A stretch of DNA of 43,757 nt from Candidatus Gastranaerophilales bacterium (lineage in GTDB: Bacteria; Cyanobacteriota; Vampirovibrionia; Gastranaerophilales; Gastranaerophilaceae), in contig CALURS010000002.1 of assembly GCA_944323215.1 (NCBI GenBank), forward strand, positions 1 through 43,757, read 5' to 3'. This document shows positions 1,005 to 35,714 of the stretch, piece after piece. Below the pieces are notes generated by a model. It was not told where the DNA came from and did no database searches. It saw only the letters and a program-made list of their open reading frames with translations. How positions within the stretch are numbered: position 1 is the first letter of the stretch; each line of letters begins with the position of its first letter. The position numbers and the translations under genes are program-made.

Positions 1005-1055
1005 GCAAATTTTAAATAAATTTAAACTTTTTTGGAATATTAAATTGGAGGAAAC

Positions 1056-4000
1056 ATGAAAAAAATTTTGGGGATAATTAGTTGCTTTGTTTTAATTTTT
1101 GCGGCAAGCATAACATTTTATGCTTGTGGTTCAGATTCTTCAAAAATTTCTCTAACTTCTAATGCAAAGGAAATTGAACTTGTTTTAGGAACTGATAACG
1201 AAACCCAAAATGTTGAATTTATTGTAGAAAATTACGGCAAAGGAAGCCCGCAAGTTAATTTTAGTTTAGAAGAAGAAGAAAAAGGAACAGTTGATATTTC
1301 TTCAAGCCATATTAAGGGAACAGGAAAAACAGTTTTAACAGTTAAAGGGCTAAAAAGAGGAACCGCAACTGTAGTTGCAACATCTTTGCAAGGAAATCAA
1401 AAAGCCGTTTTAAAAATTAAAGTTATTCAACCTATACAGGGTATTAGTCAAGCCAATGATTACAAAAATAAACTATATGTTGTTGCTGGTGAAAGTTTAA
1501 ATTTAAAACAAGATGTTTTTTGGAATTATAGCCCTCAAGATACGAACCAAAAAGATCTTATTTTTACATTAAAAGGAAGCTATGAAGGGTGTTCAATAGA
1601 AAATGGTCAACTATATGTTAATCCAGATTGTAACATTTCCGAAGTTACCATCAATGTAGCATCGTTACATAACGAACAGGTATTTACTGAAATAAATGTA
1701 AAAATTTTAAAATCAATTAGTGTTACAGTTCAAGTAGATGGGAAAACGGTTGTTGAGAATGTAGAAAACCAAACATCTCAAATTTTAAACTTTTTTGAAA
1801 TATTTCCTAAGGAACCAGAAGTGTCTAAATTTCCAAATAGCTTGGAAGTTGTTTTAATTGTTAAAGCAGGAAAAGAAAATGATAAGTTAAATGTTAGAGT
1901 TTTAAACAGTTCGGATACAGAAAAGTTCTCTGTAAGCCCAAAGCGAAGTTCTTATGATTCAAGTCTTGGAATTTTTAAATTTACGTATTTAATTCAGGGA
2001 AATTCTCAAGAAACAGGAAAAATAGACACTATATATTTTAATGTTTCTTATGAAAATTATGATGCAGGCGAAAGCAATTATGAAAAGAATTCTATAGGAT
2101 TAAATATTAATTCTTATGATAAAGCCATGGAAACAAAAGTTAATGGACAAAGCGGAGACATTGAAATAGAAATTTATGAAAATTCAGATAATGTTAACAA
2201 TGCTAAAGCATTAGAGTTTTTACTTTCTCCTTTTAATATTAAATCTGAAGATAAAAATATTACCATTTGGGCTGAGAATTATGAAAACCTACCAATATCG
2301 TTTTATAAATTAAATGCTACAAGAACTTCATATGTATGTGTATTTGGATATGATAAAAAAGGTGATTTTATTGGAAAAGATGACGAAGGTCAAATAAAAT
2401 ATGCCGAAATTTTATCTGGAACAACACTATATGTTTTTATTAATGATAAGTACAACAATTTACAAATGGAAAACAAAAAAACTGTTATCTATGCGCAAGC
2501 AAGTGAGTTTTGCACATTTTCCTCTGGGGGAGAGCAAAGGGCTCAAACAAAGATTGATTTTGTTATTAATCCTAACGCTAAAGACGTTTTTCTTGCTGAA
2601 AAGAACAACGATAATATTTTAACTGTCATTGAAGATATAAAGACAATATTTATAGAATTAGGGGAAACAAAAACCCAATATATTGCAATAGATCCAAATA
2701 ATTTTATTATAAGTAATAATTCAGTTGTTAATATTTCAAATTCGAATTTAGCAGAAGTTGGAAAATTGAAGCAATATTCTGTTGGTGATTATTATGTATT
2801 TGGAAGCTTTGAATTAACTGCAAAGAAAGTGGGTTCGACAACATTAACTATTATTTTATCCGATGGGAAAAAAGTTGATTTTAATCTTGTAGTAATAAGC
2901 CCGTTGGAAGAAATAGAAATAACATTAGAAGATTTTACTCAGGGTGGGCAAATCATTGAAAGTGATATTGTTCCATACAAAAACATAACAGACAAAACAA
3001 TTGTGGTTGGAGAAACAAATTCTTATATCGAGCTCAATAAATTGGCAATTTCCAACAATGGCGGAGCAGGTATCCAACTTGTAAAAACGCCAACGCCAAC
3101 AACAGCTCAATATTATCTAGATTTTGAATATTTTGATTTTTATTATCCTGAGAACAAGAATATAAAGAATATAACTCTTAGCGATTTAAACCTTGATGTT
3201 ATTTCATTTGGGGATAGCAGTTCTATTATTAATACAGCTTTATTAGAAAGTGCAACTATTATAGAGGCAATAAATTCTTCTAGCGAAGGAAGTGTGTTAA
3301 TTAAAATTTTAGTTTATGCAATGCAGTCTAATGGTCAGTATGGTGAAGAAGCTGTAGGATATTTCTATTATTTAGTAGATTTTTTTATTCCTGTTAGTGG
3401 AATAACTTTAAACAACGGGACACAGGAATTATTCACATATAACACTATTGGAGATAAATTTGTTGGATCTAATAATATAAGCAGATCAATAGGCACCTTT
3501 TCAATTAATATTAACACAGTCTATTCAGGCTTAACCCCAACCTACATAAACAATTTAAAAATTTTTGTTAATGGAAATGAGGCCAATATTTTAAATTATT
3601 TTAATGATAATGTTTTATTTTTAAATATTGATGGGGGAATTTCTGCGAATGAAAACAGTGCTGCTTTAAAAATTATAAAGAGTTTTAAAGATAATGTATT
3701 TACTTTTGAAATTCAAGCATTAAGATATTCTGCAAATTATGTTTTTGCTATAGTTTTATCAGAAATAAATGAAAATAAAAAATTTACTGCAATATCAAGG
3801 GTTATAGCGAAAGAAGCTGTTGAAATTGAAGATATAGAATTAATTAACGCAAATGAAGAAAATCCTATTTACGTTCAAAACAATTTAAAGACAGTTGATG
3901 ATTTTGAAAATGAAACACAATATTACGAATATTTAAATGAAATATTTGATAATCCTTATCAATTAGAAATAATATATAACATATATTCAAATAATGGAAA

Positions 4001-7000
4001 TGAGATTACCAATCCATCTCTTGAATTTGAGATTGAATACAAGGAATCTTCAAATAGCAAAAATTATTATTTGGACCAAAATGGTAATAAAATAAACTTT
4101 ATTCAAATTTTAGATGATGACGGGCGAACTAATTTAAAGGTTATTAAAGCAGCTTGGGATTATTCGGGCTATTATAGTTTATCTGAAGAAGATAGGGAAC
4201 AGACAACAGCAGAAGAAGAAAAAAAACTTGTTCAATTTGGAGCAAATGCAGTAATAAAAATTTATCCTACTTCTAATTATTATGAAGTGTTTGAAGGCTG
4301 CAATGGTGAAGAGCCTATTGTTTTTATTCCAATTATTGTTGCAGATGGGTTAACAAGTTCAACAGCCTTTCAACTTTACACAGAAGATGATTTAAATTTA
4401 TTGGGCGAATATCCTGCATCTAAATTCGTTATTATGACAAATATAACAATGTCAGCTGATAATAATTTTAAACCAGTTGAAAGTTTTTCTGGTGAATTAA
4501 GAGGAATCGAAAATTTTAGTGGAGGGGTTCCATCTTTAATAACAAACAAACCTCTTTTCAAGGAAATTAATGAAAATGGTGTTGTTAAAAACTTTGCATA
4601 CATTATGACTGGCAATACAACTACATCAAGTTCGGAATTAGAAATTGATTATGGCAACTATAAGTCAACTAAAGATGGGATATCTTATTTTGGAGGATTG
4701 GCTAATATAAACAACGGACAAATAATAAATGTTGGAGGAACTCCAGAATTTACAGAAGAGGCTTATTCAATTATTTCTACCGTTAAAATGAAAAACAGAG
4801 CAGATGGTTTATATTATCCGGCGTCTTTATTAGTTATCAGTTGGGGATTTCCATCATTACAGAGTTGGAAAAACCAAATTGTTGCAGAGTATGAAATATC
4901 CGCAGGCGAAAATGTTAAATACACTGGAGGTTTAGTTGGGTTAAACAATGGAACAATAGAATCTTCAAATGAATTTAAAATCAATGCGAATTATTCATTA
5001 ATTATTGGGGCAAATGTTGGAGGAATTGTTGGAGTTAACAACGGGTCTATTAACGGATTAGATTTTTTTGGTAGTATATTGGCAACGGAAAGTTCTGGAG
5101 GAATTGTTGCATTAAATCGAGGCGAAATAAACAACTGTAATGTTAAAGCATCAAAAATAGAAGATTATCCTTTAGATTTTTCGGGACTTATTATAACATC
5201 AATAATTTCTGATGAAATTTATTCTTACGACAATGAAAATATTAAATTTGCAGCTGGCGGTATAGTTGCAATAAGCGAGGGGGGGATAATAAATAGCTGC
5301 AGTTTCCAAAGTAACTATTTAAAAGATTCAGAAGGAGATGAGTCTTACTCTAAGTTTAATCAGGATACGATAGCTAGCATAAAAACAATAAATTCTGAAA
5401 ATCTATATGATTTTAATCAGAGTTGCTTTTATAAAAATTCTTATGTTGGAGGTTTAGTTGGAATTCTAGAAGATACAAAATTAAACCAAAGCTTTTTTGA
5501 TGGAGCATTGGGCTTTAGATATTCAAAAGCAGGTGGGCTTGTTGGAAAATTAATTGACGATGGAGATGAAAGCTCATATCTAGTTGAAAACTGTTATGCT
5601 ATTTTGGGCTATGAAAATGCTTCTATTGAAACATCAATTGCTGAATTGGAAGAGTATTTGCAATATGGATACTTAGATAGATTTGGAACGGGATTGTTTG
5701 TTTCCGAAGGACATTTAGGAGAAATTAAATATTGTTATGTATCTTCTAATAATAAACATTTCGGATATGGATATGCCAATTTAACTGGAGAAACTGTTGG
5801 ATCCTTTAAATCGGCAACAAAAAATTCAAATTTAAGTTCAATATTAGATGTATTTAACAAAAAAATTCAAATTAGCAGATATGACTTAATTGAATTAAGT
5901 GATAAAAATATATCTTATTTTAAAAACAATTATAAATATACCGAATTAAATGCTCGCCTCGAGTTATCAAACTCTACTGAAAACATAAAAGAATATAGAC
6001 TTGAAGGGGAAATAATATTTTTTAAAGATTACGTTCCTGGAAAACAAAGAACAGAAAATTTTGGTTTTACAATTAATGTTTACGAAGATAAAACTATAAC
6101 TATTGATAGCGATAATGAATATATTTTTGAAGGAATATACAAAGAAAATGAAAATATTAAATTAAACTTAATCTATTATTCTTATAACGATTCTTTTAGA
6201 ATAATTTTTGAGAAAAATAATTATAGCGAAAGTATTGGAGAATTTTATTTAACAAACGACAGCCAAGATTTAATTTATTCTTTATATGACGATACAAAAT
6301 TTTATTTAAACTATAACCAAAATTCGTTTTATCAAAACTTTGGCAAAATAACAGATGCTAACTACGAAATATATCCGGTAATAGGCGGGATAGGTTTAAC
6401 ATATTATAAGCTTTTCCAAATATTTTTGGCACAAAATTATGAAGAATTGGTTAAAGATGAAACGTGGAGCGGAGTTTCTTTTGAAGGCAATTCTGGAATA
6501 ACTGGGCAGGAAATAAGGACAATGATTTCCAAATATTTTAATGGGGCATTAACAAAGGAAGGTGTTGATTTATTCGTTGAAAAATACATTATATCCGACA
6601 ATAACAGCAAAGATAATTTTGATAAAACTTTTGAACTTATTCAAGCAGATATTGAAACCTTTTCAGAGAGCTTTATAGAAAATTATCAGTTGTTTATTGA
6701 CACAGCTGAATCAAAATTAACTTCTGAACAAATAACTGAACTCAATGAGAAAAAAGCAAATTACCAAGAAATAATCAACAAATGCAAAACTTATTATGAT
6801 GAAACAGTGAGCCTTACAACAAGTGAGTTGAGAAGTTTTCTTATTAATGGATTAAAACCTATTTACGATTTGCTGATGAGCTACTATTTTGATATCATAC
6901 TTTATGAGGATGTATTTGATGACCCAAATATTACTGAAACAGATTTTTACAATTCGTATTTATGTATGATTTATCCAATTATGCTTGAAGGAATAAACGA

Positions 7001-10000
7001 ATATTTATTTACAAGCGTTAATGCAATTTATAGCTTTGATCCTGATGTAAACAAAGATTTAATTCCTGAAAATATAGATGGGTTTATTGATGCTGGTTGG
7101 GATATAAAAAATAAATATGATATAGATGGGAATTACATAGAAGATGACTCAATTTGGGTTTATGAACAAGGAAAGTTGCCAACATTAAGAGAAAATAATG
7201 AGGAAATTCGAATTAAAGATTTTGATATAGTATTAAATCCTAATAATTTTGATAAAGATAAATTAATTTGTAGCGATGAAGAAATAATTTTATATTATTA
7301 TGATGTTGCGGATAAAAATTTATTGAATAATAAGCAACAAGGAATGCTTTTAGAAAAGAATTTAATTAAAATAAGTGATGTTGTTAAGTTTATTAATATT
7401 AATGGCGTTCCTGGGTTAAATTTAGGTGAAGAAAAATTTTTAATACAAAGCTCAAATAGAAATGTTATTAGAATTTTAAATGGAGCTATAAATGTTGTTG
7501 GAACAGGAAAAACAACATTAACAATAACACCTTTCTTTGGACCTGTGTTTGCCGATAAACCGATAAAAACACTAACTATATATGTTATCTATCCATTTGG
7601 AGAAACAAAAATTTATAATGGTATAAGTAGTGAGTCAGGAGTTAACTCCTCTAATCTGCCAATTAATAATAAAGAAGATATTGTTTTCTTAAAGGGAGAA
7701 AATAATTATATAACGATAAAAACAGAAAATGAATTAATATTAGAAAATACAACATATAAATATTTAACAAATATTAGTGCATTTGATGTTGTTATTAGCC
7801 ATTTTAATAAAGATAACGAACTAGTAGTTGACTATTCTAATTTGCAAGATAATGAAAAAAATAACTTTAATGTTTTGGGATTGGCGGGAGAAGATTCCGG
7901 TAAATTTATTGAAGGAACTTTAACATTAATTCTAAAAGAGGGAGTTTTAGAAGACACAAATTACAAATTTGAACTTAAAACGCTTTTACAATCAAAATAT
8001 CAGCCATACAAAAATTTTGAAGGAGATTTAAAAGAATTCATTTCTCAAGTAAATGGAATTTTACTAAATAAATTCACAGAAAATTTCCACTTCAATGTGT
8101 CTATTAGGGCTGAAAAACTTTTAGTTTCTATAAAATCTGCCGAAATAGATCCTTCAACGGTTATATCTGCTGATGCAGAATTACATACTAATAGAAATGA
8201 AGATTATTTAAAACTAATTATTAGAGATGAAAATGACCAAATAGTTTGGGAAACTAATAATGAAAAGATAAATGACTCATCAATTTTTGATGTTTATGCG
8301 CCTAAATTATTTGAAAAAACATCTCCTGCAGATGGCAAATTAAAGGGAAATATTTTAATAAGTGTTAAGGAAAGCAAAAGACCAAATATTATTTCAACGG
8401 AAAAATATTTTGTCCATATTACCGATTCACAAGAAAATGTTTCTTACAGTTTTGAATTTGTGCTAAAACCTCAAAAAGTTATAAATGTTGTTTACACACA
8501 TAATAACAGAACGGATAACTCTACAGAAGATGGAATTGCAATTCAAGATGAACCTAGTTCAATATTAAATCCTGGCGATTTTGGTATTTTAACTATTGGA
8601 ATGTATCCAACTTATTCCTCATTTAACAGGATTGTAATAGAAAGCGAAATAATTAACGACAAACATTATGTTTTAATGGAACAAATGTATTATAGCGATA
8701 ATGGATACTTTAAGCCTACCTCAACAACAAGCGGTTATAAGAGTGAAAGAAATGCAAATGTTTTAACAATATATAAGCCAACTGCTACTGTAACTGGTAA
8801 TAATATTGGTAATATTTTTGTTAAAACGAAAATTTTGAGCGATGTAAAAGAAGGGCTTTATTTCCCGTTAACAATAACCATATATGCAGTGGATGAAAAT
8901 GGCAATGAATATATTGTTAAAACAGAAACAATTACACTAGTTTCTGAAGTTATTAATGGGGCTAATATTACTATAAACGGCGAAAAAGAGGCAGTTGTTG
9001 CCAGAGGCAATAACTATTCTGTTGAAATAAGTGTTGATGAAAATCAGTCGCTTGCGAATTACACATTGGTTGATTATGATAAAGATATAGAATTAGCAAA
9101 TGATATTGTAACAATAAATTTTAATACCAGCGAATATGAATTAATAGATGGAAGAAAAATTTATACTGGAACATTAAATATAGGCTTAGATGCCGAATTA
9201 AATGGAGATGGTATATTTAAAATTCAAACCATAGTTCAAAAAATCATTAATGGCAGACTTGAAAGTTCTACAGATTATGTTGAAGTTAGAGTTGTTGACT
9301 TTATTGTTGAAGGTATTAAAATAAAAGGACAAGATGAAAATGACAATGTTTTTAATACACCGGTTGCAATTGAAAAAGATTTAGTTTTTGACTTTATACT
9401 TTCAAAAACGCCAGAAAAAATAAGTTCTAATCAAACGGAATCTATAAATAGAATTGAAATGGGTAAAAAAGAATTTATTGAAACATTGGCATTTAAGCAA
9501 TATTATTACAATGATGTTGACAACAAAATTTATCAATATTTAATTAATACTGATAGGGTCTTTAGCATTGTTGACCAAGATGATAGTAAATTAACTCATC
9601 AATCTTTAACACAAAGGACAATAGCGTATGATTTATATTATTCAAGTGACTTAACTCCTTTTATTAACTCTTCAAATGAAGTTCAAGAAAATAGATATTT
9701 CACACTAAAATATAATGGAGACAGCAATGGCAATGTTATTGATGCTAATACTTTAAAGGTAATTGGTAAAACAGTTGGAAGCAATAATATGACAATTAGA
9801 ATTGGCTATAGGCTTCCTAACAGTGATTTTGATCAATACATTACTTACAACTTTACAATTAATGTTCAAACATATTCAGATGAAGATAAGCCAACGCCAA
9901 TAGAAACAGCAGAGCAGTTTGTTTCTTATCTGCAATCAGAAAATGACCAATATCTAACTTCGAATTTTATATTAATGAATGATATAGTTTTAGAAGATTT

Positions 10001-13000
10001 TATACCATTTGAAAAAACAAATTTTGAAAGCCTAGATGGAAACAATAAAGTTATTACTATAAAGAACTTTAATTTAACTCAAATGACAAATCAATTAAAT
10101 ATAGGGCTCTTTAAAACTATTTCGCAAAATTCAACTGTTAAAAATTTAGTTGTTAATTATTCGGAATTAGAAAGCATATATGTTGATGAAAATGTTTTTT
10201 CATCAGTAAATTTTGGAGGAATTGCGGTATTTAATAATGGAATCGTATATAACTGCGAAGTTGTTTCAATAAATTTAAGTAATACGGAAGCAAATTATAA
10301 TAATGGAATTAATATATATTTTAATCATGACAATCAAGATGCTTCAAAAAACGAAGAAACAAAGGTTCAAATTGCAGGATTAATTGTTGAAAATTCTCAA
10401 ACAGGAAGTATTACAAATAGTAGAGTTGGAGGAAAGGGCTATTTTACAAAAGTTGAATATAGCAATGACTCTATAGAAGAAACTGAATATGAATACAACA
10501 AGATAAATATAATTGGGCAAGGCAATATTTCCGGTTTTGTTATTTCAAATTCTGGAGTTATTTCGGCTTCATATTTTGCAAATGGATTTATTGAAAACAA
10601 GACAATTTCTGGAGAATTTTGCGCAACAGCAGGGTTTGCAATTCAAAATTTACTAGGCGGTGTTATTACAGGTTGTTACGTTGAAGGCACTAGACTTCCA
10701 TCAGACAACTTAGAAATTTCTATTAGTGGCGGCGGAATTGTTGCACAAGGAGTGTCGGCGGGATTTATTTATATAAATTCTGGAAATATAGCAGATTGTT
10801 ATTCAAATATAAAATTAGCAGGAAATAGTACAGGCAGATTAGTTTCAGGTTTTGTTTATAATAACACAATAACAGGTATTGTTGCTAGATGTTATTCGGC
10901 TTCACAAATAGTTGGAGAGCTTACAACACAAATGCCTTTTACAGGAAAAGATGCAAAAGATAATTCATTACAAGAAAATCCTAACGGAATTGTTAACAGT
11001 TATTACATAGTTGAAAAACTTGATACCGATACATTGTTAGAAAAGAAATATAACACGGGAGCAACCGCTATTCAAAAAGCAAATTTAACTGATTCTATTT
11101 TCTATGGATTTGCAATGGCATCGGATCAAATTTTAAACAGTGGAATTTGGATTTGGAATACAACTTATGGATATCCTGAATTAATTTCTGCAAATAACAT
11201 AGCAATTTCTGTTAGAAGAATTATAAAAAATTATTCTTCTATAATTTCTGGAGGGACATCAACACAAAACTTAGATATTTTCCCTTACATACAAGGATAT
11301 GAATATGGAACTGAAAAAAATCCTATTATAATTAGATCAGCAGATGAATTTAATAGAGTCTTTGGTCAAGAAACAAATTTAAATCCAAATACCTATTATG
11401 CAATTAGTCAAATGTATAATAAGGATTTAGGTATTGTTTTTGGAAATTATAGGCTAGTTTCACATATAGACTTTAATAATTTATCTATTGTTGAAAATGT
11501 AAAAATTTCTTCATCTATAATGAAATTAACAAATAATGGCGGATACACTGGTGCATTTGATGGAAACGGTTTAAACATATACAATGTTGAAATTGCTTTA
11601 GATAATCAAAGTTCTATTGGACTATTCTCGGCATTATCTAATGGAGCGTCATTAAAAAATCTAACCTTAACGGTTATAACAGTAGCTGGTTCTGGAAAAA
11701 CAGTTTATGCGGGATCGGTTGCGGGATTAGTTCAAGATTCTTATCTTTCTAACATAACAGTTTCTCCAGTTAATGAATCAGGAGAAAATAGATCTAGAAT
11801 TTCTGGACAAAACATAGTTGGAGGAATTGCAGGTGCTGTTCTAGGAAACTCAAAAATATCAAATTTGGTTTCCAGCATTTCAGTTGTTTCTGGATATAAA
11901 ATGCCTAACAAAGAAGGAATTGACTATTATACCCAAACAGTATTAAGAAACAATAAAATTGTTGAAAATGGTGTTATTGTTGATCAAAACAGTTTTTATA
12001 GCTTTGCTGGTGGCGTTATTGGAGTTTTAGATATTTATGAAGACATAACAGATAATTCTATTACTTTTAGCAATCCAAATGCAATAAGGCTTTCTTATTT
12101 TGGCAACAATGTTTCAATTCAAGCATGTTTTGTTGGAGGTGTTGTTGGATATGTTGGTGCTAGTACATATTTAGCAGATGCAAGCTTTATTCTAACAGGA
12201 GATCGAAGTTCTTTAAATCAGAGATTAATATCCTACAATAATACAATAGGAGGTGTTGTTGGTATTAATTACGGAGAGTTATTCGAACTTAGAATTGAAT
12301 ATGAAGATGAAATACAACAAATTATAGAATCAAATATGGAAAATTATTATAATAACAACAGCAACATATTCCGTGGGAATACAAAACTTTATAATTCAAC
12401 GGGCGACAGTCTCGAATATATTGGGGGATTAGTTGGCCAAATGAAAAAAGGCAGCTTAAGTGTTTCTTATTCTAGAGTTGATGTTTCAGCATCGGCTAGT
12501 GATTATGCTGGTGGAATTATTGGCTTAAACGAGTCTTCAACCGAATTCGTTGAATTGTATTCTTATGGAGACGTTGATGGGAAAACAGCAGGTGGAATTA
12601 TTGGTTTAAACCGTGCAAACGCAAGTTTTGATAAATGTGTTGCCTTCTCTTTCTATTCAAAAGACAACACTAATATAAACGATGCTATTTCCAGCGCGAA
12701 TGACTTTAACTCTGGTAATTTAACTTTAAATGGTTATAGCGTTGATGAGAAAACTATTGTTGATGATGAAACTATTGTTGAGGTGATAACTCATACATTT
12801 ACATTTACTAATGGAATTACTCTTAAAATTTCAAATTCAGGTGTTGAAAATCCTAATTATTATTACATCATTAAAGATGAAATCACAGAAAAAGGTAGCA
12901 TTACACAATGGCATTTAGCAAATGTTGTTGTATACACTTACAATGAGGATTCTTTAAGTTATGTTTTAGTTAAAGAAAAACTTTATAATGATCCAGACAG

Positions 13001-18479: not shown

Positions 18480-18512
18480 TAAAAACTTTGTGAAGAAAGA
18501 ATGGAGAAAAGT

Positions 18513-21500
18513 ATGAAGAAGAGAATTTTGAGTTTTATTGTTTTAATTTTGGTTGCGGTTTGCGGAGGCATTTTTGTTGCCTGTGGCGGAGGCAATCCTT
18601 CTATTAATGCTAAAGTTATTGTTAACTCTGGGTTAGACAAGCAAGTTAACCAAGAAATTTTAGATTCTATTTCTTCTGAACTTTCTCTTTCAAATTTAGA
18701 AATTCAAAATCTTGCTTCTGGAACAGGATATGATAATTCTGTTTTAGATCAAAAATCTGTTTCACTTATTGTAGACAGTCAATCGAATTCTTCTAGAGAA
18801 ATTATTGTTGAGTTTATTGGATTTAATGAAAACGAAACAAGTGTTGTATTTTCGTCGGATTCAAAGTGTGTTGACATTTCAAATGTTGAGTATATTTCTA
18901 CTAACAAAGCAAAAGTAACATTGAAGGCTGTTTCTGCCGGAACTGCAGAAATTTATGTTAAAACAGGAAGATACAATAAAACAACTACCTTCACCGTTAA
19001 ATGCATAGAAAAATTACAAAGTTTTTCTGTTAAATCAAATGCTGTTATATATTTAGAGAAAGGAAAACAACTTGAAATTAATCCAAGCGATTATTTAAAT
19101 TTTTATCCTTCAAGTTCTAACTTTACCGACGTTGAATTCTTTGATAAAGAAATAGCCTTAACAGAGAATAATAAAACAGTTTTGTCAACTGAATGGCATG
19201 AAGGGGTTACAGGAGTAATTTCTGAAAGCAAAGAAATTTCAGTTAAAGCTAAAAGATTAGTTGGGGGGGCTAGTGTTCAAACAATTTCCGTTATAGTTGT
19301 AGACAGTTTATCTAATCTTGAAATGAAAAAGATGGTTTATGATAGCAATGGAAGCAAAAATTATGTTAATCTAGAAAACAATTCATTATTAACATCAATA
19401 AGAAATGTTTCGAATGGGGATATTAATTATGCTATAAGGGAAGTTTTTGTTATTGTAGACAATGCCGAAGAAAATCTTCAAATTTCTGCAAAAACGAATT
19501 TAGACGAAGAAAACATTTTAATTGTTCCAACTTACAAAGAACAAATTACAAATTTAAATTATGAGACTGCAGAATATTTTAATTTAATCGACACGACCAG
19601 GGAGAAGTTTTCAACGTGGGTTTATAAATTTGAATTCAAGTATGAAGGCTATTCTGAATATCATGTTGAATTTAAGTTTAGTTCTAATGGTTATAAATAT
19701 GACAACGTTTTAGGATTAGATGTTGAATTTAAAAGTGCTTCTAATATGATTAATTTAATTAACACCATAGATTCAACAATAGAAAACGACTTTAAAATAT
19801 ATGACAATTATGTTGGAGTTGCTGGGTCGAAGTTTTTAATATCAACTAATAAAAGCGATGAATTTAGTAAAGCAAAACTGCTTTTAAGATTTGGTGGAGA
19901 AGCTGTTGACAAATTTGTTTTATATGATTTGCAAGGAAACATAAAAGTAAATGATAATGGAGTTTATTCCTTTTCAAACGAAGAAACATTTTTTATTAAA
20001 GCAGTTAGCGGCAGTTCAAGGCAGGATCCGTATAAAATAACAGCAGAAGTAACATACACTTTTGAAAATATCCAATTTAAAACATCAAAAGAAATAAATT
20101 TGTATTCAATTAATTCTCCAACGGATTTTGTTTTTAAGAATGGGGAAGGGGAAATTAATAGCTATAATTTTGATTTAAACACTTCTGGGAAAATAATTTC
20201 TGGAAATAAGCAAACTTCAGATTATGATTTAATAAATGAACTAACCTTAATTATTGAAGGAAGAATAGATTCAGTAGTAACTGGCAAGATAACGGATTTT
20301 GTTATTAATGATTCATCTGGTTTATTACAAATTGAAAAAACAGCAAATGGCGAAATAAAAATAACAGCTAAAAAAACCGGAACAGGGAAATTTACTGTAT
20401 ATTTAGGCAACGGCATTAGCAAAGATTTTCATATAGTTGTTATAAACAGCTTGAGCGAAATAGATGTATATTTGCCACAAGCAAATCAAAATAGCAATAT
20501 AATATCCATCATCGAAAATTATATAATTAATGATGTAAATTATGATCAATATGCAATAGTAAAAAATAACTCCCAAATCCCTTTAATAATCGATTACAAA
20601 GGGGATATATTATCTATTCAAATTAATGACAACCTTGAAAATTTTGAACTTATTAAAGATAAAATTCAAATAAAAAATGAATTTAACAAACAAGAACTTG
20701 TAGTTAAAATTTTGTTTAACAGCATAGATGAAGATGGACAAATAATTGAAAATACAGTAGAGGTTCAAAAAATTTTATTAACATCTATAACCCAAATTGA
20801 AAATTTTGAGATTTCAACGAACAAATCAAGCAACAATTTCGATTTATATGACTATTCTAGTGTTGGCTATTATAACAAAGATCAATCTGAGGCATATATT
20901 TATGTGAATATTTTACCAGAATCTATTAAATATGAAACAATATCAAAAATAAAATGGACAACAAATTATCCAAATTCAACAATAAACTATTACAGCAATG
21001 ATGGAATTATTGAAATAACAAACGAAGTTTTTTCATTTATGTTTTATCAAACAGGAAATAATGCAGGAATGGGAATCTTGCAATGTAATGTTAAAAGCGA
21101 AGAATTATTTAATAGCAACGGAGATTTAAATTTTGGCAAAATATCGCTTACTGCAAGTTTTTTCATAGATGATGAAGATAGTTTTGGAAATTATTTTAAA
21201 AACATATATTTTACTGTTAAAAAAGCTAGAACAGTTGAGGTTATCGATAGTTCTCTTTCAAAAATTAATTTAGATCCATATTCTACTGAAGCAAATATTG
21301 TAATCAATACATATCCTTTAAATTCAAAAAATAATGAACTTGTTTATATATTTGCGCCTTTAACTCCTGGATTGCCTGAAAACGCAATATTAATAAAGCC
21401 AATAGAGAATGCAATTAATGTTAAGCTAAATTCTTCAATAGGCGGGGAAGGTGTTTTAAGAATTATTGCAAAAGATAGTTATTCCAGTGCTTCAACTTAT

Positions 21501-24500
21501 AAAACTTATTTGGAAATTCCAGTTAACATTGCAGATGGAAGCGAAGCTTTCCCTTATGTAATTTCAAATTCAACAGACATAGAAAAAATGATTGAAACTG
21601 AATTTAATTATTATTATATAATTAATGGAAAAATCGATTTAACAAATGTTAGCTGGGAGGCAGGCAAATATGTTCTAGGCGGAAAAATAATTGGAAAAAA
21701 CAATGCCAAATTTGTTAATTATCAAATAAAATCTTGTTATTTTAATGAAAACAACGAATACTTTTCAGGTTTATTTAAGGACATTTCCGAAACTGGTTTG
21801 ATTGAAAATGTTTCTTTTGAAAACATATCAATTAACTTAGATTTATCTACTAAAACGGAAGAAACCAATGCATCAATTGGTTATATAGGATTGCTTGCGG
21901 GTAGAAATAAAGGAACAATAAAAAACGTTTCAGTTAGTATTGGTGGCAATGAAAACAAGATAGAAATTAAGGATTCTTACAACATCAATATTGGAGGAGT
22001 TGTTGGAATTAATTATGGGAATATTTTAACTACTATTAATTCTAATTCAAAAAATACTAGATTAGTAATTTTTGAAAATGAAAATGGGCTTAATATAATA
22101 GAAGACAAATCAGAAGGAAACAATTCCCATTCTCTTTATGTTGGGGGAGTTGTTGGCCAAAATCTTGGCGGACGCATAGAAAGAACAATAGAAGGCAATT
22201 TAACTGAATTTAACGATGACTTTGCTACAGCAATAGTTAATATTAAAATTGCAACGAATCCATCAACAACTTCAACTGAAGGTGTTGGAGCAGTTGCGGG
22301 TAATAATAGTTCAATAGGAGGAGGATTAGTTGAAAATCCAGGAATTTATGGTGTTTCCGTTTTAGGATTAATACAAGCCGAAAATTTATACAATGTTGGT
22401 GGAATTGTTGGAAATAATTCGTTAAAGGTTGAAAGAGCAACTTCACAAGTTCAAGTTATTGGAGGAAATAATGTAGGAGGTGGAGTTGGACAAAATTCTG
22501 GAGAATTAACTTCAATTTATATTGAAAACATTAACAGTGGTAGGCCAAAAATCTTAATAGACGGCGAAAATTATGTTGGTGGAATTGTTGGATATATGAA
22601 CGGCGGACAGCTAACTTATTCCTACTTCATTTCATATTTTGCAGGCGAAAACATCGAAAACACAGATCTTGCAGTAGAAGATTCTAATTCAGGTTCTTAT
22701 TGGGGTTTAATTGTAGGTAATGTTATTGATGGAACAATAAACTATGTTGTTGCAATCGCAGATGCAGATAGCAATAACACAACTGGAGAATCAAACATTG
22801 TTTCCGAAAACTATGCTATTTATAGTAAAGATAGTAAGGTTCCAACAAAATATAGCAGTAATTTAGAGAACAAAACAAGAGAAGAATTAAAATCAACCAC
22901 AGGTTTTGAGTTTGTTTTCCTTCCAAGCGAAAACATAGATATTAAGTTAACTGAGAATGACAATGGATATTGGAAAAATGTTGGTGGGCATTTAAATGGC
23001 AATAATAATGTTGGCTTCTTCTTGTATTATTTTAATTCAACAGCTAACAGGGTTAATGAAATTGTTGATTTGAATTTTGCAGATTTATCTAAGCTTATAA
23101 CAAGCAGTGTTGGAAACAAATATTCAGTTATTAGTGAAAATACAGATGTTTTGGAAATTTTTGGTGGGAATTTAATTATTAAAAAACCTGGAATTGCAAT
23201 TTTAAAAATAACCTCTCCATATGTTGCTGATGTTAAACAAAGTGTTTATATTAAAATTGTTAATTATTCTAACAATATTTCTGGATATTTTGACCAAAAT
23301 AAGCAAAATGAAATTACAAGCGAAGAAACATTAGACGCAGAAGAAACTGTAATGTTATATTTTGACTTTTTAGACAAATACAACATTGATGAATTTGCAT
23401 CACCTCAAGATATTAATCTTTTGTTTGTTGCAACAAACGAAAGCCAAACTTTTGTTATTAAAGCAGGAGAAACTGTTGAAAATGCACCGTTTAGCATAAC
23501 AAAAATAAGTTATAACACTTATCAATTTGTTCCAAACGGAACAACAGGAGAATATAAAATTTCCATAATACCTTATATTGTTTTTGATAATGGAGAAGTT
23601 GAGTTAATTTCGTATATTGAAGATAACCAAACAATTAAATCTAGCCTTAATTTACATGATGTTATCGGAAATTTAATTGGTTTGGAAAGAAATCTTTCTG
23701 TTGAAAGCGTAATAGAATTTACTTTAAACATAGAAAAAACAACAAAATCGATTAATCTTTCTAAAGATTCTATAACTACAGAACCGTATTATATTAAAGA
23801 TGTTGAAGTTAGTTTAGATTCTAACAAGGTTGACGAAGTTTTGACAATTTCTGTTAAAGATTTAAATAATAATTCGGTTTCTGGCATTGTTGGAATTAGC
23901 ATAAACGGAATAAACGAGTTTAATTATGTAGGAGAAATAACAGTTAAAAATATAAATTGTCAAACAAATGGCAAATTAACTTTTTATTTTAAAATGAAAG
24001 ATGATGCTAAAGCATTTGATGTTACACAAAGTTACATTATTGAATTTAGAACATCAAATGGAAAAATTGCAAAATTAAGACTTAATTACGAGCCGCAAGA
24101 AGTTCTAACTATATCATCAAATTTATATCCATTAAAAAATGAGCTAGACAATGATTTTAATTTTGAAGGAGAATTTTCTTATATACCTACTGGAACTATT
24201 ATCCCAGGACAAAATTCTTTAATCGAGTTTCAAATTATGCCTGGATTCACATACTTTGATACTATAGAAATTATTAATTCGAGCAACAACCAATATAACT
24301 TACTTTTTGATCTTTACGATAGAACTAATAAAGCAGCAATACCATCTAAAATGATTGAAAATGGAATTTCAATTAGTAGAAATTTAATTAAAAATGGATT
24401 TTTTAGTTTAAGAACATTTGCAGATCAAAGATTATATGATAATTCTTATATTTCAATTGTGATTTTATTAAAAGACAAAGAAGGAAATGTTATAGGCTCA

Positions 24501-27500
24501 CCTATTGAAAAGCAATTTTATGTTGAACATCTTCCAGGTGTTAGCATAACAATAGATGGAGTTTCGAGCGGCAACAGTCAATCTAATCCATTATTGCTTG
24601 CCGAAGGAGTAAAGTATAATTTAGATGTTAATATAAAAAATTATTCAACAGGCAATTTCGTTGCAAATGGTGCTGTTTACAATGACGGTCAAATTGTTTT
24701 TGAAATTGGCGGGGCTTGGGCAAATGCAACAATTTTAAAAAATTTAGATGGAACATATGCTTTGCAGGTTAATGAAAACTTAGATTTATCAAAAAACGGC
24801 GGAATTGTTCAAATAAAAACATATGGAATTAACGAATGGGGAGAGAAAAGCAAAGAATCAATTTTATATATTAAGATAGTAAAATTTGTTGTTAAAAGTT
24901 CAGAAAATTTAGGAGATATTGTAAAAGGTGTTGTTGATAATGTTTATGCTTCTGCGACTGGAAACACTTTAAAGTTGGAAATTTCATTGAATTCTGACAT
25001 TTTAATTTATAATAAAAATAATGAAAAAACTAAAAATCTAGTTGAAAAATTTTTAAAATCGCTTTCTTCGTCGGAAGTTGCCTGGGCTTTTAAAGATTTG
25101 CTTAATTCAGATAACTGGATAAGAATTAATTCTATAACCGAAAGCTACACAACAAAAAATGGAGCATTTGAAATCACTTATAATTCAGAAACGGGAGAAG
25201 CTGTAATAAAATTCAAAAAGACCGAATCCGTTGATGCATCAACATTAAAAATTAGATTTAATGCATATTTTGAATATGAAGATGGAATTCCAAAATTAGC
25301 AACAGGTTCTTCATCAAACAAATTTTCTTTAAGTCAGGAATTTGGTTTTAATATTACAGAAAAAACAGAATTAAGAAATCCTTTTCCTATTTACACATAC
25401 GAACAATTTTTAGATATGCGAGAAGGAAATTATTATATATTAATGAACGATATAACCCTACCAGAAAACTTTACTCCAATTAATACTTTAATTGGCGGAT
25501 TAGATGGCAACAATTATAAAATAAACATTTCTAGAACAATATTAACTGGAGATGAAAATAACACGAGTTTGGTTTTTGGCATTTTTAAGAGAACAAATAC
25601 AAACTGCATATTAAAAAATATTAGAATATATGTAAGAAACAATTTAGAAATATCAACATATAATTATTCTTCTATTATATATGGATTGTTGGTTGGAGAA
25701 AATAACGGAATTATAACCAACTGTAGCATTGAAGGAGAGGATTTATCTATTATTAATCTAAATTTATTTGGTAAAGCATCATCTCAAAGTGTTAACAATC
25801 AAGTTGGTGGATTAGTAGGTTTAAATTATGGAGATATATCGAATTGTCGCATTGAAACGGGAATTTCTGTTAATAGTTCTCAGCTTGTATCAACAGGCTA
25901 TTTACCTGCAAATGTTGGGGGAATGGTTGCTGTTAACCAGTATTCTGGAACAATAACATCTTCTTACGTAAATGCAAGGATAGAAAACAACTCTGCCGGT
26001 TCTTCAATAGCAATAACAGGAGGATTTGTTGCAAGCAACGATTTAGGAGGTAAAATATTCTCTTCATACACAAATGGCGAACTTGTGTTCCCTATGAGCA
26101 GTACAGATTTAAATAATTCATTAGCAATAGTTTATTCGGCATCTGGAAAAGCTAGCGGTTTTGTTTATTTTAACAATGGTGAAATATCAAATTGCTATTC
26201 AAACATACCAGTTAAAGCCACAGCATCTAGCGGTTTTGTTTATCAAAATGAATCAGAAGGAGTTATTTCGTATTGTTATTCAACTTCGGCATTGCAAAAC
26301 AGTGCAACCAATGGCGGGTTTGTTGGAGTTATTCCTGGAACAACGCAAGACGAAAGCATGATATTAAATAACGGAACATTTAGGAACTGTTATTATTGGG
26401 AAGGGGAAGAAGAAGGCGATTATAATTTTGGTTTAGGGAAAAATGAAACACAGGGATTGGATAGCCTAACTAAAGATGATTTTAAGAACAGAAATAAATT
26501 TGTTGACTATGCTTTTAGCACGGACTCAGATAAAACATTAGGTATTTGGTTTATGGCTTCTGCAAGCGGAGAAACTGATTTTATAAACAATGGCGAAAAA
26601 ATGAAATTTTTTACAGAAATTCCTCAATTAGTTTCTCCAAACATTTTAGTATTTGGGCATAAAAAACTTTTAAAAACAGAATATAATGAAGAAACAGATA
26701 TGACAGTTTATTATTATCAACAAGATAGCAATTATCCTGAAGGAAGCAAATATAATCCTTTTATTGTTGCTTCACAAGAGGATCTCGAATATTTAGCATC
26801 AAATCAATCCGGATTTTTAAATGGGAACTTAATAAATTGCGAGTATGTTAGATTGGTTTCTGATATAATTTATAAAGGACAAAATTTAAGCGGTTTATAT
26901 AAATATTCATTTTTAGGAAACATTGAAGGAAATTCATACACTATTGGAAATTATGCGATTGACAGCTCTATTATGGCAGAAAATGGGGGATTTTTTGCAA
27001 CAATAGGAACAATGCAAAAACAAGGTGGAATTTTAAAAAATATATCTTTTAAACCAAAATATATTAGTTTAACAAATTGCAATTCTGTTGGAGCAGTTGC
27101 AGGAACATTATATAGCGGAGCTTTAATTAATATAGATGTTGATGGAAATGTATATAATAGCGAAATTAACGGGTTAACAATATTGGGAAAAAATATAGTT
27201 GGGGGAATTGTTGGAACGGCAGAAGGAGATTACACATTTAAAAATTTAAAATCTAATATATCTGTTAATTCAACTTATCGTTCAAATTTAAACGGACATT
27301 CTTATCAAGAATATTTAAAAGCTTCAATTTCAAAAATTTCCTATTCTGGATTAATTGCCGGAGTTGTTTCCGGATATGGAAAAATATACTACAATGAAGC
27401 CTTTGGAGATAATGTTTCCATTGCAGAAAATGCTGGATTATTGTTTGGATATGTTGGAAAGAACGTAATTGCAGAAAAATTAATTGCTACAGGGTCATAT

Positions 27501-28292
27501 GAACAAAAAGTAAAAGCAGATGTTTACGGGGGAGTTATTGCTGCTGTAAATCTAGGATTGATATCTAATATATCTATAGTTGGAGATTCAAGTTCAAGTT
27601 ATGATGGATTTTTTGCTATAAACAATTATATTCCTTTAGCTATAGGAAATATTGTTGGCTATATGGCAGGTGGCGAAGTTAATAATGCAACAGTTGTTAC
27701 AAATCTTATTGCAAACTCAGGTGTTGAGTCTTTAGGCGGAGCAGTTGGATTGTTTAAAGCAGGAAAAATCAGTGAAGTTATAGTTAAAGGAAACATAAGT
27801 GGAGGCTATAAAATTGGTGGAGTAGTTGGGCAAATCAGAGAAATTCAACAGGGAAGTAAAATGATTATCCAGAACTGTTTTCATTCCGGAGTCCTTTCAT
27901 CAACCTCATCATCTAATATTGTTTCTGTTGGAACGGTTATAGGTTTTATTTCAAACTATTCTGATGAGAAATCTGGGGGAATAACCGTTAGTGTTGGGGA
28001 AGCTATATCTAACCCACAAACAGTTGTATCTATAATTGCTGATAATGATTTTATAAATGAAATTGCCGAAGGCCTTGAAGCGGGAGAATACACAAAAGAC
28101 TATAGGGTTATAACCTATTCATCGTCAACCTTAACAGAAGTTTGGATAGGAATTGCAGTAGGCGAAAAAGGCGGATCTTTTGAAAAAGCTCTAATAGAAC
28201 ATTCATTTCACATTTACAATTTGCAAATATCTGGCGATAAAGTTTATGCACCATTATCGGAAACGATTAAAATAAATGGGGGGGGGGAATAA
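18513..28292 (+). CDS. Second giant surface lipoprotein, paralogue of the first (about 3259 aa)
   Basis: The frame is also open from an ATG at 18501. I prefer the ATG at 18513 because GGAG (18503-18506) lies 6 nt upstream of it and because the protein then starts MKKRILSF, matching MKKILG of its neighbour. Both proteins then carry the predicted lipidated cysteine at position 24 (here FVAC-GGGN). Order by residue: Ig/Big-like regions (25-1000); GLUG block A (about 1006-1420); Ig-like regions including a Big-type LIIKKPGIAILKIT (about 1540-2285); GLUG block B (2290-2630); GLUG block C (2743-3150); and a short tail ending in Gly-Gly-Gly-Glu encoded by a G10 run. There is no sortase signal or C-terminal helix. 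It starts 33 nt after the first giant gene, so co-transcription is likely. The same domain order with low sequence identity indicates an old tandem duplication. The surface location is inferred; ligand and role are unknown. Confidence 0.9.
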   Translation: MKKRILSFIVLILVAVCGGIFVACGGGNPSINAKVIVNSGLDKQVNQEILDSISSELSLSNLEIQNLASGTGYDNSVLDQKSVSLIVDSQSNSSREIIVEFIGFNENETSVVFSSDSKCVDISNVEYISTNKAKVTLKAVSAGTAEIYVKTGRYNKTTTFTVKCIEKLQSFSVKSNAVIYLEKGKQLEINPSDYLNFYPSSSNFTDVEFFDKEIALTENNKTVLSTEWHEGVTGVISESKEISVKAKRLVGGASVQTISVIVVDSLSNLEMKKMVYDSNGSKNYVNLENNSLLTSIRNVSNGDINYAIREVFVIVDNAEENLQISAKTNLDEENILIVPTYKEQITNLNYETAEYFNLIDTTREKFSTWVYKFEFKYEGYSEYHVEFKFSSNGYKYDNVLGLDVEFKSASNMINLINTIDSTIENDFKIYDNYVGVAGSKFLISTNKSDEFSKAKLLLRFGGEAVDKFVLYDLQGNIKVNDNGVYSFSNEETFFIKAVSGSSRQDPYKITAEVTYTFENIQFKTSKEINLYSINSPTDFVFKNGEGEINSYNFDLNTSGKIISGNKQTSDYDLINELTLIIEGRIDSVVTGKITDFVINDSSGLLQIEKTANGEIKITAKKTGTGKFTVYLGNGISKDFHIVVINSLSEIDVYLPQANQNSNIISIIENYIINDVNYDQYAIVKNNSQIPLIIDYKGDILSIQINDNLENFELIKDKIQIKNEFNKQELVVKILFNSIDEDGQIIENTVEVQKILLTSITQIENFEISTNKSSNNFDLYDYSSVGYYNKDQSEAYIYVNILPESIKYETISKIKWTTNYPNSTINYYSNDGIIEITNEVFSFMFYQTGNNAGMGILQCNVKSEELFNSNGDLNFGKISLTASFFIDDEDSFGNYFKNIYFTVKKARTVEVIDSSLSKINLDPYSTEANIVINTYPLNSKNNELVYIFAPLTPGLPENAILIKPIENAINVKLNSSIGGEGVLRIIAKDSYSSASTYKTYLEIPVNIADGSEAFPYVISNSTDIEKMIETEFNYYYIINGKIDLTNVSWEAGKYVLGGKIIGKNNAKFVNYQIKSCYFNENNEYFSGLFKDISETGLIENVSFENISINLDLSTKTEETNASIGYIGLLAGRNKGTIKNVSVSIGGNENKIEIKDSYNINIGGVVGINYGNILTTINSNSKNTRLVIFENENGLNIIEDKSEGNNSHSLYVGGVVGQNLGGRIERTIEGNLTEFNDDFATAIVNIKIATNPSTTSTEGVGAVAGNNSSIGGGLVENPGIYGVSVLGLIQAENLYNVGGIVGNNSLKVERATSQVQVIGGNNVGGGVGQNSGELTSIYIENINSGRPKILIDGENYVGGIVGYMNGGQLTYSYFISYFAGENIENTDLAVEDSNSGSYWGLIVGNVIDGTINYVVAIADADSNNTTGESNIVSENYAIYSKDSKVPTKYSSNLENKTREELKSTTGFEFVFLPSENIDIKLTENDNGYWKNVGGHLNGNNNVGFFLYYFNSTANRVNEIVDLNFADLSKLITSSVGNKYSVISENTDVLEIFGGNLIIKKPGIAILKITSPYVADVKQSVYIKIVNYSNNISGYFDQNKQNEITSEETLDAEETVMLYFDFLDKYNIDEFASPQDINLLFVATNESQTFVIKAGETVENAPFSITKISYNTYQFVPNGTTGEYKISIIPYIVFDNGEVELISYIEDNQTIKSSLNLHDVIGNLIGLERNLSVESVIEFTLNIEKTTKSINLSKDSITTEPYYIKDVEVSLDSNKVDEVLTISVKDLNNNSVSGIVGISINGINEFNYVGEITVKNINCQTNGKLTFYFKMKDDAKAFDVTQSYIIEFRTSNGKIAKLRLNYEPQEVLTISSNLYPLKNELDNDFNFEGEFSYIPTGTIIPGQNSLIEFQIMPGFTYFDTIEIINSSNNQYNLLFDLYDRTNKAAIPSKMIENGISISRNLIKNGFFSLRTFADQRLYDNSYISIVILLKDKEGNVIGSPIEKQFYVEHLPGVSITIDGVSSGNSQSNPLLLAEGVKYNLDVNIKNYSTGNFVANGAVYNDGQIVFEIGGAWANATILKNLDGTYALQVNENLDLSKNGGIVQIKTYGINEWGEKSKESILYIKIVKFVVKSSENLGDIVKGVVDNVYASATGNTLKLEISLNSDILIYNKNNEKTKNLVEKFLKSLSSSEVAWAFKDLLNSDNWIRINSITESYTTKNGAFEITYNSETGEAVIKFKKTESVDASTLKIRFNAYFEYEDGIPKLATGSSSNKFSLSQEFGFNITEKTELRNPFPIYTYEQFLDMREGNYYILMNDITLPENFTPINTLIGGLDGNNYKINISRTILTGDENNTSLVFGIFKRTNTNCILKNIRIYVRNNLEISTYNYSSIIYGLLVGENNGIITNCSIEGEDLSIINLNLFGKASSQSVNNQVGGLVGLNYGDISNCRIETGISVNSSQLVSTGYLPANVGGMVAVNQYSGTITSSYVNARIENNSAGSSIAITGGFVASNDLGGKIFSSYTNGELVFPMSSTDLNNSLAIVYSASGKASGFVYFNNGEISNCYSNIPVKATASSGFVYQNESEGVISYCYSTSALQNSATNGGFVGVIPGTTQDESMILNNGTFRNCYYWEGEEEGDYNFGLGKNETQGLDSLTKDDFKNRNKFVDYAFSTDSDKTLGIWFMASASGETDFINNGEKMKFFTEIPQLVSPNILVFGHKKLLKTEYNEETDMTVYYYQQDSNYPEGSKYNPFIVASQEDLEYLASNQSGFLNGNLINCEYVRLVSDIIYKGQNLSGLYKYSFLGNIEGNSYTIGNYAIDSSIMAENGGFFATIGTMQKQGGILKNISFKPKYISLTNCNSVGAVAGTLYSGALINIDVDGNVYNSEINGLTILGKNIVGGIVGTAEGDYTFKNLKSNISVNSTYRSNLNGHSYQEYLKASISKISYSGLIAGVVSGYGKIYYNEAFGDNVSIAENAGLLFGYVGKNVIAEKLIATGSYEQKVKADVYGGVIAAVNLGLISNISIVGDSSSSYDGFFAINNYIPLAIGNIVGYMAGGEVNNATVVTNLIANSGVESLGGAVGLFKAGKISEVIVKGNISGGYKIGGVVGQIREIQQGSKMIIQNCFHSGVLSSTSSSNIVSVGTVIGFISNYSDEKSGGITVSVGEAISNPQTVVSIIADNDFINEIAEGLEAGEYTKDYRVITYSSSTLTEVWIGIAVGEKGGSFEKALIEHSFHIYNLQISGDKVYAPLSETIKINGGGE
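19263..19269 (+). repeat. G7 homopolymer near the start of the second giant gene
   Basis: Seven G bases encode Val-Gly-Gly-Ala at about residue 251. A single-base slip would truncate the protein early, leaving only the N-terminal Ig-like region. Confidence 0.8.
21530..22780 (+). repeat. GLUG block A of the second giant lipoprotein
   Basis: The header (GSEAFPYVISNSTDIEKMI, then YYIINGKIDL) is followed by GLUG units such as NIGGVVGINYGNILTT, YVGGVVGQNLGGRIERT, NVGGIVGNNS and YVGGIVGYMNGGQLTYSY. It occupies the same relative place as block A in the first giant protein. Confidence 0.75.
25380..26400 (+). repeat. GLUG block B of the second giant lipoprotein
   Basis: The header IYTYEQFLDMREGNYYILM and the LDGNNYKINI motif start the block. 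Units include QVGGLVGLNYGDISNC, NVGGMVAVNQYSGTITSSY and KASGFVYFNNGEISNCY. It is collinear with block B of the first giant protein. Confidence 0.75.
26740..27960 (+). repeat. GLUG block C of the second giant lipoprotein
   Basis: The header GSKYNPFIVASQEDLEYL corresponds to GTEKNPIIIRSADEFNR in block C of the first protein. Units include NIVGGIVGTAEGDYTF, AGLLFGYVGKNV, AIGNIVGYMAGGEVNN and KIGGVVGQI. The protein ends soon after this block. Confidence 0.7.
28278..28287 (+). repeat. G10 homopolymer at the 3' end of the second giant gene
   Basis: Ten consecutive G bases encode the last glycines before Glu-TAA. All three frames meet a stop within about 20 nt downstream, so slippage would change only the last few residues. 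It is the longest G-run noticed in the window and stands out in AT-rich DNA. Confidence 0.85.
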
Positions 28293-28355: not shown

Positions 28356-28384
28356 TTGACATATTTTTAAAATAGTGTTAAAAT
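28356..28384 (+). promoter_or_regulatory. Sigma-A-type promoter of rpoBC
   Basis: A perfect -35 TTGACA (28356-28361) is separated by 17 nt from -10 TAAAAT (28379-28384), with TG one base upstream of the -10 (extended -10). Transcription should start near 28391, giving a leader of about 105 nt before the rpoB ATG. The tRNA-Pro promoter shares TGTTGACA and the AAAATAGTGT spacer end. Confidence 0.85.
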
Positions 28385-28447: not shown

Positions 28448-28479
28448 GGCAAAAAAAACTTTTTGCCACTCTTTTTTTT
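28448..28479 (+). terminator. Terminator-like hairpin in the rpoB leader (possible attenuator)
   Basis: GGCAAAAA (28448-28455) and TTTTTGCC (28460-28467) form a perfect 8-bp stem with a 4-nt loop, followed by ACTC and eight T residues (28472-28479). It lies between the rpoB promoter and its ribosome binding site. It would therefore stop transcripts from that promoter as well as read-through from the giant lipoprotein operon. An upstream stem ATAAGTA/TACTTAT (28409-28433) lies in the same leader. An attenuation role is inferred. Confidence 0.65.
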
Positions 28480-32171: not shown

Positions 32172-32198
32172 TAACAGATAATTTTTAGGAGAAAAGAA

Positions 32199-35100: not shown

Positions 35101-35714
35101 AATCATATATTTTAACAATAAAAGGAACAGACAATGAAGCAGTTTACGAAATAAATAAACCGGCATATTTAAAAGTTAAAACAGGTGATAAAATTGAAGC
35201 TGGAACAGCTTTAATGGAAGGCTCCATCAATCCAACTGATCTGTTAAGAACTAAAGGTTTAAAAGGAGTTCAAGACTATTTGCTTTCAGAAGTAATTTCT
35301 GTATATCGCTCACAAGAAGTTAAAATTAATGACAAACATATAGAAGTTATAATAAGGCAAATGTTGAAAAAAGTTAAAATTGAGGATGCAGGAACAACAA
35401 CTTTACTTCCGGGAGAAATAGTTGATGTTTATGATTATGAAGAAGCTAACATTAAAGCCTTAAGCGAAGGTGGGGTTCCAGCAACTGCAAAAAGAATGTT
35501 ATTAGGAATCACAAAAGCATCTCTATCAACCGAATCTTTCTTATCTGCAGCTTCATTCCAAGAAACATCAAGAGTTTTAACTGATGCTGCTCTTAAAGGC
35601 AAGATTGATAAATTAGAAGGTCTGAAAGAAAATGTTATAATAGGTAAATTAATACCAGCTGGAACAGGATTAAAAAAATATAGAAGTGCAATTCCAGTTG
35701 AGGCATCAAATTAA
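32199..35714 (+). CDS. rpoC: RNA polymerase beta' subunit
   Basis: This 1171-residue catalytic subunit carries the invariant NADFDGDQM at residues 448-456, in which Asp450, Asp452 and Asp454 bind the active-site Mg2+. The N-terminal zinc site is Cys60, Cys62, Cys75 and Cys78. The second zinc site is Cys795 (TEDDC), Cys874, Cys881 and Cys884 (GVCAKCYG). The bridge-helix and trigger-loop region is intact ([12 protein letters not shown]). AGGAG (32187-32191) sits 7 nt before the ATG. It is co-transcribed with rpoB, and a strong hairpin terminator follows. The usual downstream ribosomal protein and elongation factor genes are replaced by miaB. Confidence 0.98.

Follow-up and report, generated by a model that had tools for sequence, protein, structure and literature searches.

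The window, by which the whole stretch of 43,757 nucleotides analysed is meant, carries two consecutive giant lipoprotein genes, P0001 (long type) and P0002 (short type). The pair is read here, with slightly better than even confidence, as a conserved two-arm attachment apparatus of the bacterial family UBA1242, built from paralogous elongated surface lipoproteins. Giant surface proteins are already known; a lipid-anchored pair of Ig-like chains and GLUG solenoids that is fixed in one reduced-genome family, and found nowhere else in the samples, is new.

As the initial annotation had described, two unbroken frames were found open over 27 kb, at 1056-18479 and 18501-28292. Separated by 21 bp, they probably form one operon, and the pair sits just 5' of rpoBC. 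For P0002, the start at 18513 (3259 aa, lipobox Cys24) is likelier than that at 18501 because of its better ribosome site, a GGAG at 18503-18506, 6 nt ahead of this second ATG. P0001 and P0002 are neither chance frames nor an assembly artefact, since intact orthologs of about 5000-8100 aa (long type) and 3100-5800 aa (short type) are present in many independent assemblies. The features are as follows.

1047-1051 (+): Shine-Dalgarno GGAGG for P0001 (sequence)
1056-18479 (+): P0001, giant lipoprotein, long type, 5807 aa (frame, translation, orthologs)
1056-1127 (+): P0001 lipoprotein signal peptide, lipobox Cys24 (lipobox pattern)
1128-4205 (+): P0001 Ig-like chain 1, residues 25-1050, pairing with P0002 1-992 (hhalign 2.8e-24, 1.2e-12)
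4242-5675 (+): P0001 GLUG block A, residues 1063-1540 (hhalign 1.1e-19; Pfam GLUG borderline)
5733-7085 (+): P0001 lineage-specific insert, residues ~1560-2010 (missing from other clades or aligning badly there)
7203-9755 (+): P0001 Ig-like chain 2, residues 2050-2900, pairing with P0002 1505-2165 (hhalign 4.4e-14, 2e-14)
9756-12695 (+): P0001 conserved core, GLUG blocks B and C, residues 2901-3880 (cross-clade identity; hhalign 1.1e-68, 1.2e-45)
12903-18476 (+): P0001 C-terminal tail with GLUG-like units, residues 3950-5807, not in P0002 (hhalign)
18501-28292 (+): P0002, giant lipoprotein, short type, 3263 aa, or 3259 from 18513 (frame, translation, orthologs)
18503-18506 (+): Shine-Dalgarno GGAG for the P0002 start at 18513 (sequence)
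18513-18584 (+): P0002 lipoprotein signal peptide, lipobox Cys (lipobox pattern)
18585-21440 (+): P0002 Ig-like chain 1, residues 29-980 (AF2 all-beta, pLDDT 67; Foldseek tandem-Ig matches)
21444-23060 (+): P0002 GLUG block A, residues 982-1520 (ortholog alignment, hhalign)
22998-25310 (+): P0002 Ig-like chain 2, residues 1500-2270 (hhalign)
25341-27845 (+): P0002 conserved core, GLUG blocks B and C, residues 2281-3115 (AF2, Foldseek; predicted beta-solenoid)
28356-28384 (+): promoter-like site for rpoB, TTGACA-17-TAAAAT with TG (sequence)
28497-35714 (+): rpoB and rpoC, usual 3' neighbours of the short-type gene (window genes, relatives' loci)

The genes of the window are a ttcA-like gene (minus strand), the two giant frames, rpoB, rpoC, miaB, mutS, mutL and miaA, together with a Met_gamma_lyase-family gene and tRNA-Pro; miaA and ttcA were named by eye, and for ttcA Pfam adds PP-loop support. 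The strong promoter-like site at 28356-28384 suggests that rpoBC have their own promoter. Between this site and rpoB lies a terminator-like hairpin at 28448-28467 (GGCAAAAAAAACTTTTTGCC, then T-rich), a possible candidate for a leader attenuator.

The lipobox was present in both proteins as claimed, at Cys24 in P0001 and at Cys24 in P0002 read from 18513, and its Cys is invariant in 27/27 orthologs checked. P0001 and P0002 were searched for an LPxTG sortase motif, for HExxH and for a second hydrophobic or membrane-span-like stretch, and none was found. As far as can be judged from sequence, the lipid-only tether put forward initially is supported: both proteins are predicted to be lipidated at the N-terminal Cys and show no other anchor. 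A sortase-anchored adhesin was rejected, as the window pair has no C-terminal LPxTG; an IgA1 protease (M26) was rejected as well, as the pair has no HExxH and no M26 in Pfam or NCBIfam.

Comparison of P0001 with P0002 by BLASTP gave scattered weak matches only. Profiles were made from the orthologs of each protein and compared with hhalign. Matches were obtained between P0001 1-624 and P0002 1-658 (E 2.8e-24), 738-1022 and 724-992 (E 1.2e-12), 1063-1354 and 982-1306 in block A (E 1.1e-19), 2076-2490 and 1505-1883 (E 4.4e-14), 2504-2782 and 1900-2165 (E 2e-14), 2933-3385 and 2281-2719 (E 1.1e-68), and 3406-3851 and 2734-3111 (E 1.2e-45). The profile match is significant outside the GLUG units, with E of 1e-12 to 1e-68 over the shared length; with several aligned stretches lying outside GLUG, the repeat motif alone cannot explain it. 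The header motifs quoted earlier (YEQFL/AEQFV, YILMNDI/FILMNDI, GTEKNPIII/GSKYNPFIV) were present. The common order of Ig-like regions, GLUG block A, Ig-like regions, GLUG block B and GLUG block C that had been proposed is collinear by hhalign, but P0001 runs about 1900 residues past block C, and these show only GLUG-type similarity to P0002. Collinearity is therefore confined to P0001 up to ~3860 and P0002 up to ~3115. Of the two domain families expected, GLUG was recovered at borderline scores but Big_2 was not. In a six-frame scan, one PF07581 unit per protein exceeded the cut-off (24.1 and 21.2 against 20.5 bits), whole-protein hmmscan for GLUG was borderline or below the Pfam cut-off, and a Pfam search of the window pair for BIg2 (PF02368) gave no match; the label "Ig-like" rests on predicted folds, without a Pfam match. 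The P0001 insert, in the region of GLUG block A, looks helical by eye.

In a tree of 50 cores, long and short types are split with one change each and the genome clades are repeated on both sides. SH-aLRT support is 93% for the long-type split, against a weak 42% for the branch of the short type. The collinear profile homology and the two mirrored types bear out descent from a duplicated gene, and the simplest reading of these sequences would be one ancient duplication before UBA1242 radiated, followed by parallel descent. The deep member G321 sorts cleanly into neither type; it has two giant core-bearing genes (L129-L130, 5044 and about 8323 aa) of ambiguous type and order. The initial annotation had offered two functional readings, alternative adhesins and a two-part surface machine. 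Two paralogs with identical domain order, whose operon-like spacing would permit joint control, could form a phase- or strain-alternating adhesin pair with one in use at a time, but both types are retained in parallel and follow the genome phylogeny, which disfavours this reading and makes it extremely unlikely. The two-part surface machine stays a plausible candidate.

The host bin (2.07 Mb, contamination 5.4%) contains two rpoB genes. The second, on contig C25, is 56% identical to the window rpoB and resembles the rpoB of the relatives of the bin. Residues 1-2990 of P0002 had no match in 58 GTDB relatives of the host bin. The second, different rpoB and this lack of a P0002 match indicate that the window contig was mis-binned, and mis-binning in turn accounts for the absence of P0002 from these relatives. 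The RpoB of the window is up to 93% identical to that of small-genome Clostridia MAGs (L005, L020) and 77% identical to that of Candidatus Caccopulliclostridium, which has been placed in family UBA1242 (PMC8035907). Judged by RpoB kinship, the true owner of the window is a member of GTDB family UBA1242 (Christensenellales), whose genomes measure 0.8-1.4 Mb and come from gut bacteria.

Of 147 UBA1242 genomes sampled, 105 carry the full-length core common to P0001 and P0002, mostly in two copies (E<=1e-30); the remaining 42, incomplete MAGs or genomes with diverged copies, had no match at this strict cut-off. Strong core matches (E<1e-90) were present in 13/200 genomes of the order sample, all of 0.8-1.3 Mb, and in the class sample 9/391 genomes matched, with exactly two copies each (0.8-1.2 Mb); most of these 13 and 9 genomes recur in the family search. 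Among the 398 genomes of the phylum sample the query genome alone matched. In about 780 genomes sampled across class and phylum, no larger-genome lineage gave a full-length core, in searches that score few candidates per genome and that distant copies could escape. The giant GLUG frames of larger Christensenellales genomes were rejected as orthologs, as only short GLUG stretches in them match the core and tail profiles. Frames of this kind (L120-L128, 5000-8300 aa), without Ig segments or a full core, are common among those genomes of the order that lie outside UBA1242.

Both genes were found in related genomes, often side by side, as anticipated. Both cores lay on one contig and could be typed, by score and frame length in a list compiled by hand, in 36 genomes. 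In every one of these the genes are on the same strand with the long type 5', and they are usually adjacent; the cores are <=25 kb apart in 25 of these genomes and 35-50 kb apart in 11. The long gene is immediately 5' of the short one in G059, G060, G061, G062, G094, G091, G095, G100 and G310, with a tandem spacing of 6-335 bp in the neighbourhoods read. In G068, G070, G071, G072, G079 and G093 the genes are about 16 kb or more apart with order and strand kept, and in the split-pair genomes uvrB/uvrA-like and other genes lie between them (by eye). A full-length short-type core is directly 5' of rpoB in 43 rpoB loci and a partial core in 3 others; in 33 loci genomes, mostly without a core at rpoB, the core pair is elsewhere in most. 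The tandem order beside rpoB is probably ancestral, being seen both in the window clade and in the deep G310/G091 clade. In one MAG (that of L020; L088, G060:C3), four genes lie between the short-type gene and rpoB; they are not present in the sister L005. In the split-pair subclade (L098, L101, L105, L107, L111, L118), a VirB4-like ATPase gene of ~900 aa (by eye) is immediately 5' of the short-type gene.

In many relatives the long gene lies 3' of an M23 peptidase gene whose best NCBIfam match, below the cut-off, is SpoIIQ, and in one subclade SpoIIID (Pfam 1.3e-30) is also 5' of the long gene. Since UBA1242 keeps sporulation genes (PMC12306168), the pair could be sporulation-linked and act at the forespore or spore surface. 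We consider this very unlikely: the window and its sister MAGs have ttcA-like and gyrB-like genes as neighbours, the short gene is usually beside rpoBC, and a common neighbourhood need not imply a common function.

Structure predictions were obtained for an N-terminal and a C-terminal part of P0002. Residues 2170-3263 were modelled by AF2 with many short strands (mean pLDDT 81.8, pTM 0.80), and the conserved core is predicted to be a beta-solenoid. The nearest Foldseek matches of the core, at low TM-scores, were GLUG domains of IgA1 proteases and a Bacteroides GLUG protein, followed by PfbA, SRRP and other beta-helices; the core profile had no significant match among PDB sequences. Gly, Asn, Phe and Pro make up nearly every invariant core column, which points to a structural solenoid and away from catalysis. 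The weaker fold matches include PL6 alginate lyases and further carbohydrate proteins of beta-helix fold, and UBA1242 needs outside metabolites (PMC12306168), so that the solenoids might capture polysaccharides or glycoproteins, binding or perhaps cutting them, and carry them to the cell. Nutrient capture of this kind appears improbable, however, because Pfam and NCBIfam gave weak GLUG only and no enzyme family for the window pair, the invariant columns hold one Asp and one Arg only, and sugar importers are reported missing from UBA1242 (PMC12306168). The N-terminal 1150 residues of P0002 are all-beta and weakly modelled (pLDDT 67, pTM 0.38). This half gave 426 PDB matches at E<=0.001 in Foldseek, and among the best matches listed most were tandem-Ig, cadherin and S-layer proteins, at low TM-scores.

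The core of P0001 is 23-44% identical across clades and far better conserved than the rest of the protein. Evolutionary rates were compared in the sister MAGs G059 and G060, whose RpoB proteins are 99% identical. In the long protein, the first 1000 residues are 90-96% identical (dN/dS 0.04-0.14) and the core 83-94%, and over the last 1700 residues identity drops from about 65% to 36%, with many indels and a dN/dS of 0.3-0.5; the C-terminal third is thus the fastest-diverging part in these close relatives. The short proteins are 72-93% identical over their whole length. Anchoring at the N-terminus presumably makes the variable end of the long protein the distal one. The tail dN/dS stays below 1, so that either a change of ligand or relaxed constraint could underlie the divergence. 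A rival reading is a structural coat, in which both proteins would join via the solenoid core into an S-layer-like or fibrous lipid-anchored layer that shields the cell and binds no partner. The matches of the Ig-like half to the S-layer proteins SbsB, EA1 and Sap, the retention of both proteins together family-wide and the far better conservation of the core are in its favour, but a coat needs high copy number, which is costly at 3-6 thousand residues, and the divergence of the tail fits a contact surface better; we hold a coat to be unlikely.

The members of UBA1242 live in the gut, are uncultured and have genomes near 1 Mb. Most biosynthesis, part of glycolysis and the standard transporters, including those for sugars, amino acids and peptides, are reported missing from them; an obligately symbiotic or parasitic life, drawing metabolites from other cells, is predicted for the family (PMC12306168). 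Such cells should depend on partners. It is this partner dependence, together with the family-wide retention of the pair, the solenoid core and the divergence of the tail, that leads to the attachment reading. Each protein would be exported and lipid-anchored at its N-terminal Cys, and would reach outward as Ig-like chains alternating with GLUG beta-solenoid rods, with the same double solenoid core in both. The distal, fast-evolving GLUG tail of the long protein would most likely touch a partner cell, mucus or glycans. In the short protein the core lies near the free end, and this protein may work beside the long one. Surface exposure, adhesion, cooperation of P0001 with P0002 and ligand contact are all inferred. 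The attachment reading is weakened by the relatives that hold the long gene among sporulation genes, by the pTM of 0.38 of the N-terminal model, by the low Foldseek TM-scores, by the tail dN/dS below 1, which may reflect relaxed constraint, and by the 42 family genomes without a strict core match. A wider proposal, which we regard as rather doubtful, is that the pair serves as an attachment organelle for an episymbiotic or parasitic life led by the whole family. Its two lipid-tethered arms, by rough estimate of the order of 100-150 nm when fully extended, would share a docking core, and one of them would have a species-specific tip that picks the partner; this two-gene system would have arisen once in UBA1242 and be without known homolog elsewhere.

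Among known systems, Giant1-5 of Apilactobacillus kunkeei are encoded by consecutive genes and are surface proteins of 3000-8000 aa that take up several percent of a small genome; they have beta-solenoid domains and are proposed adhesins (PMC12863079). The pair resembles them in its consecutive giant surface-protein genes, small genome and predicted beta-solenoids. In the Giants, however, the solenoid is N-terminal, the repeats are mostly alpha-helical (with beta domains in Giant4) and wall attachment is predicted to be C-terminal and SH3b-like (PMC12863079), whereas the pair has an N-terminal lipid anchor, Ig-like chains, and GLUG solenoids in the middle and distal parts. No SH3 family was matched in the window proteins (Pfam). 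Membership in the Giants was rejected, the N-terminus being a lipobox and an all-beta Ig-like chain; the likeness is read as convergent. The best core fold matches, GLUG-containing IgA1 proteases (7uvl, 6xjb) and the Bacteroides GLUG protein 3n6z (Foldseek E 2e-4 to 1.5e-3), differ in that the pair has no protease domain or HExxH, shares 13-14% identity and is far larger. PfbA and the serine-rich repeat protein (SRRP) adhesins, weaker core matches, have a beta-solenoid fold, but the pair lacks LPxTG and has another architecture. The S-layer proteins Sap, EA1 and SbsB, with tandem Ig-like chains, are fold matches of the N-terminal half, but the pair is lipid-anchored, has no usual S-layer wall-binding domain and is several times larger. 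A literature search, with most subscription journals outside its reach, found no paper on the P0001/P0002 pair.

The pair is a concrete candidate for how UBA1242 cells contact their partners. It costs about 27 kb, roughly 3% of a ~1 Mb genome, and is barely detected by domain libraries; for tests in mixed samples it can serve as a marker, and its core is conserved while its tip is variable. A third giant secreted frame of about 5500-6400 aa, without a lipobox, was seen in L138-L144 (G061, G065, G073, G080, G125, G098, G095). Those parts of it that were read did not match the P0001/P0002 segment profiles; it has a conserved N-terminal region, and its neighbours include dnaB-, gltX-, trpS- or asnS-like genes (by eye).
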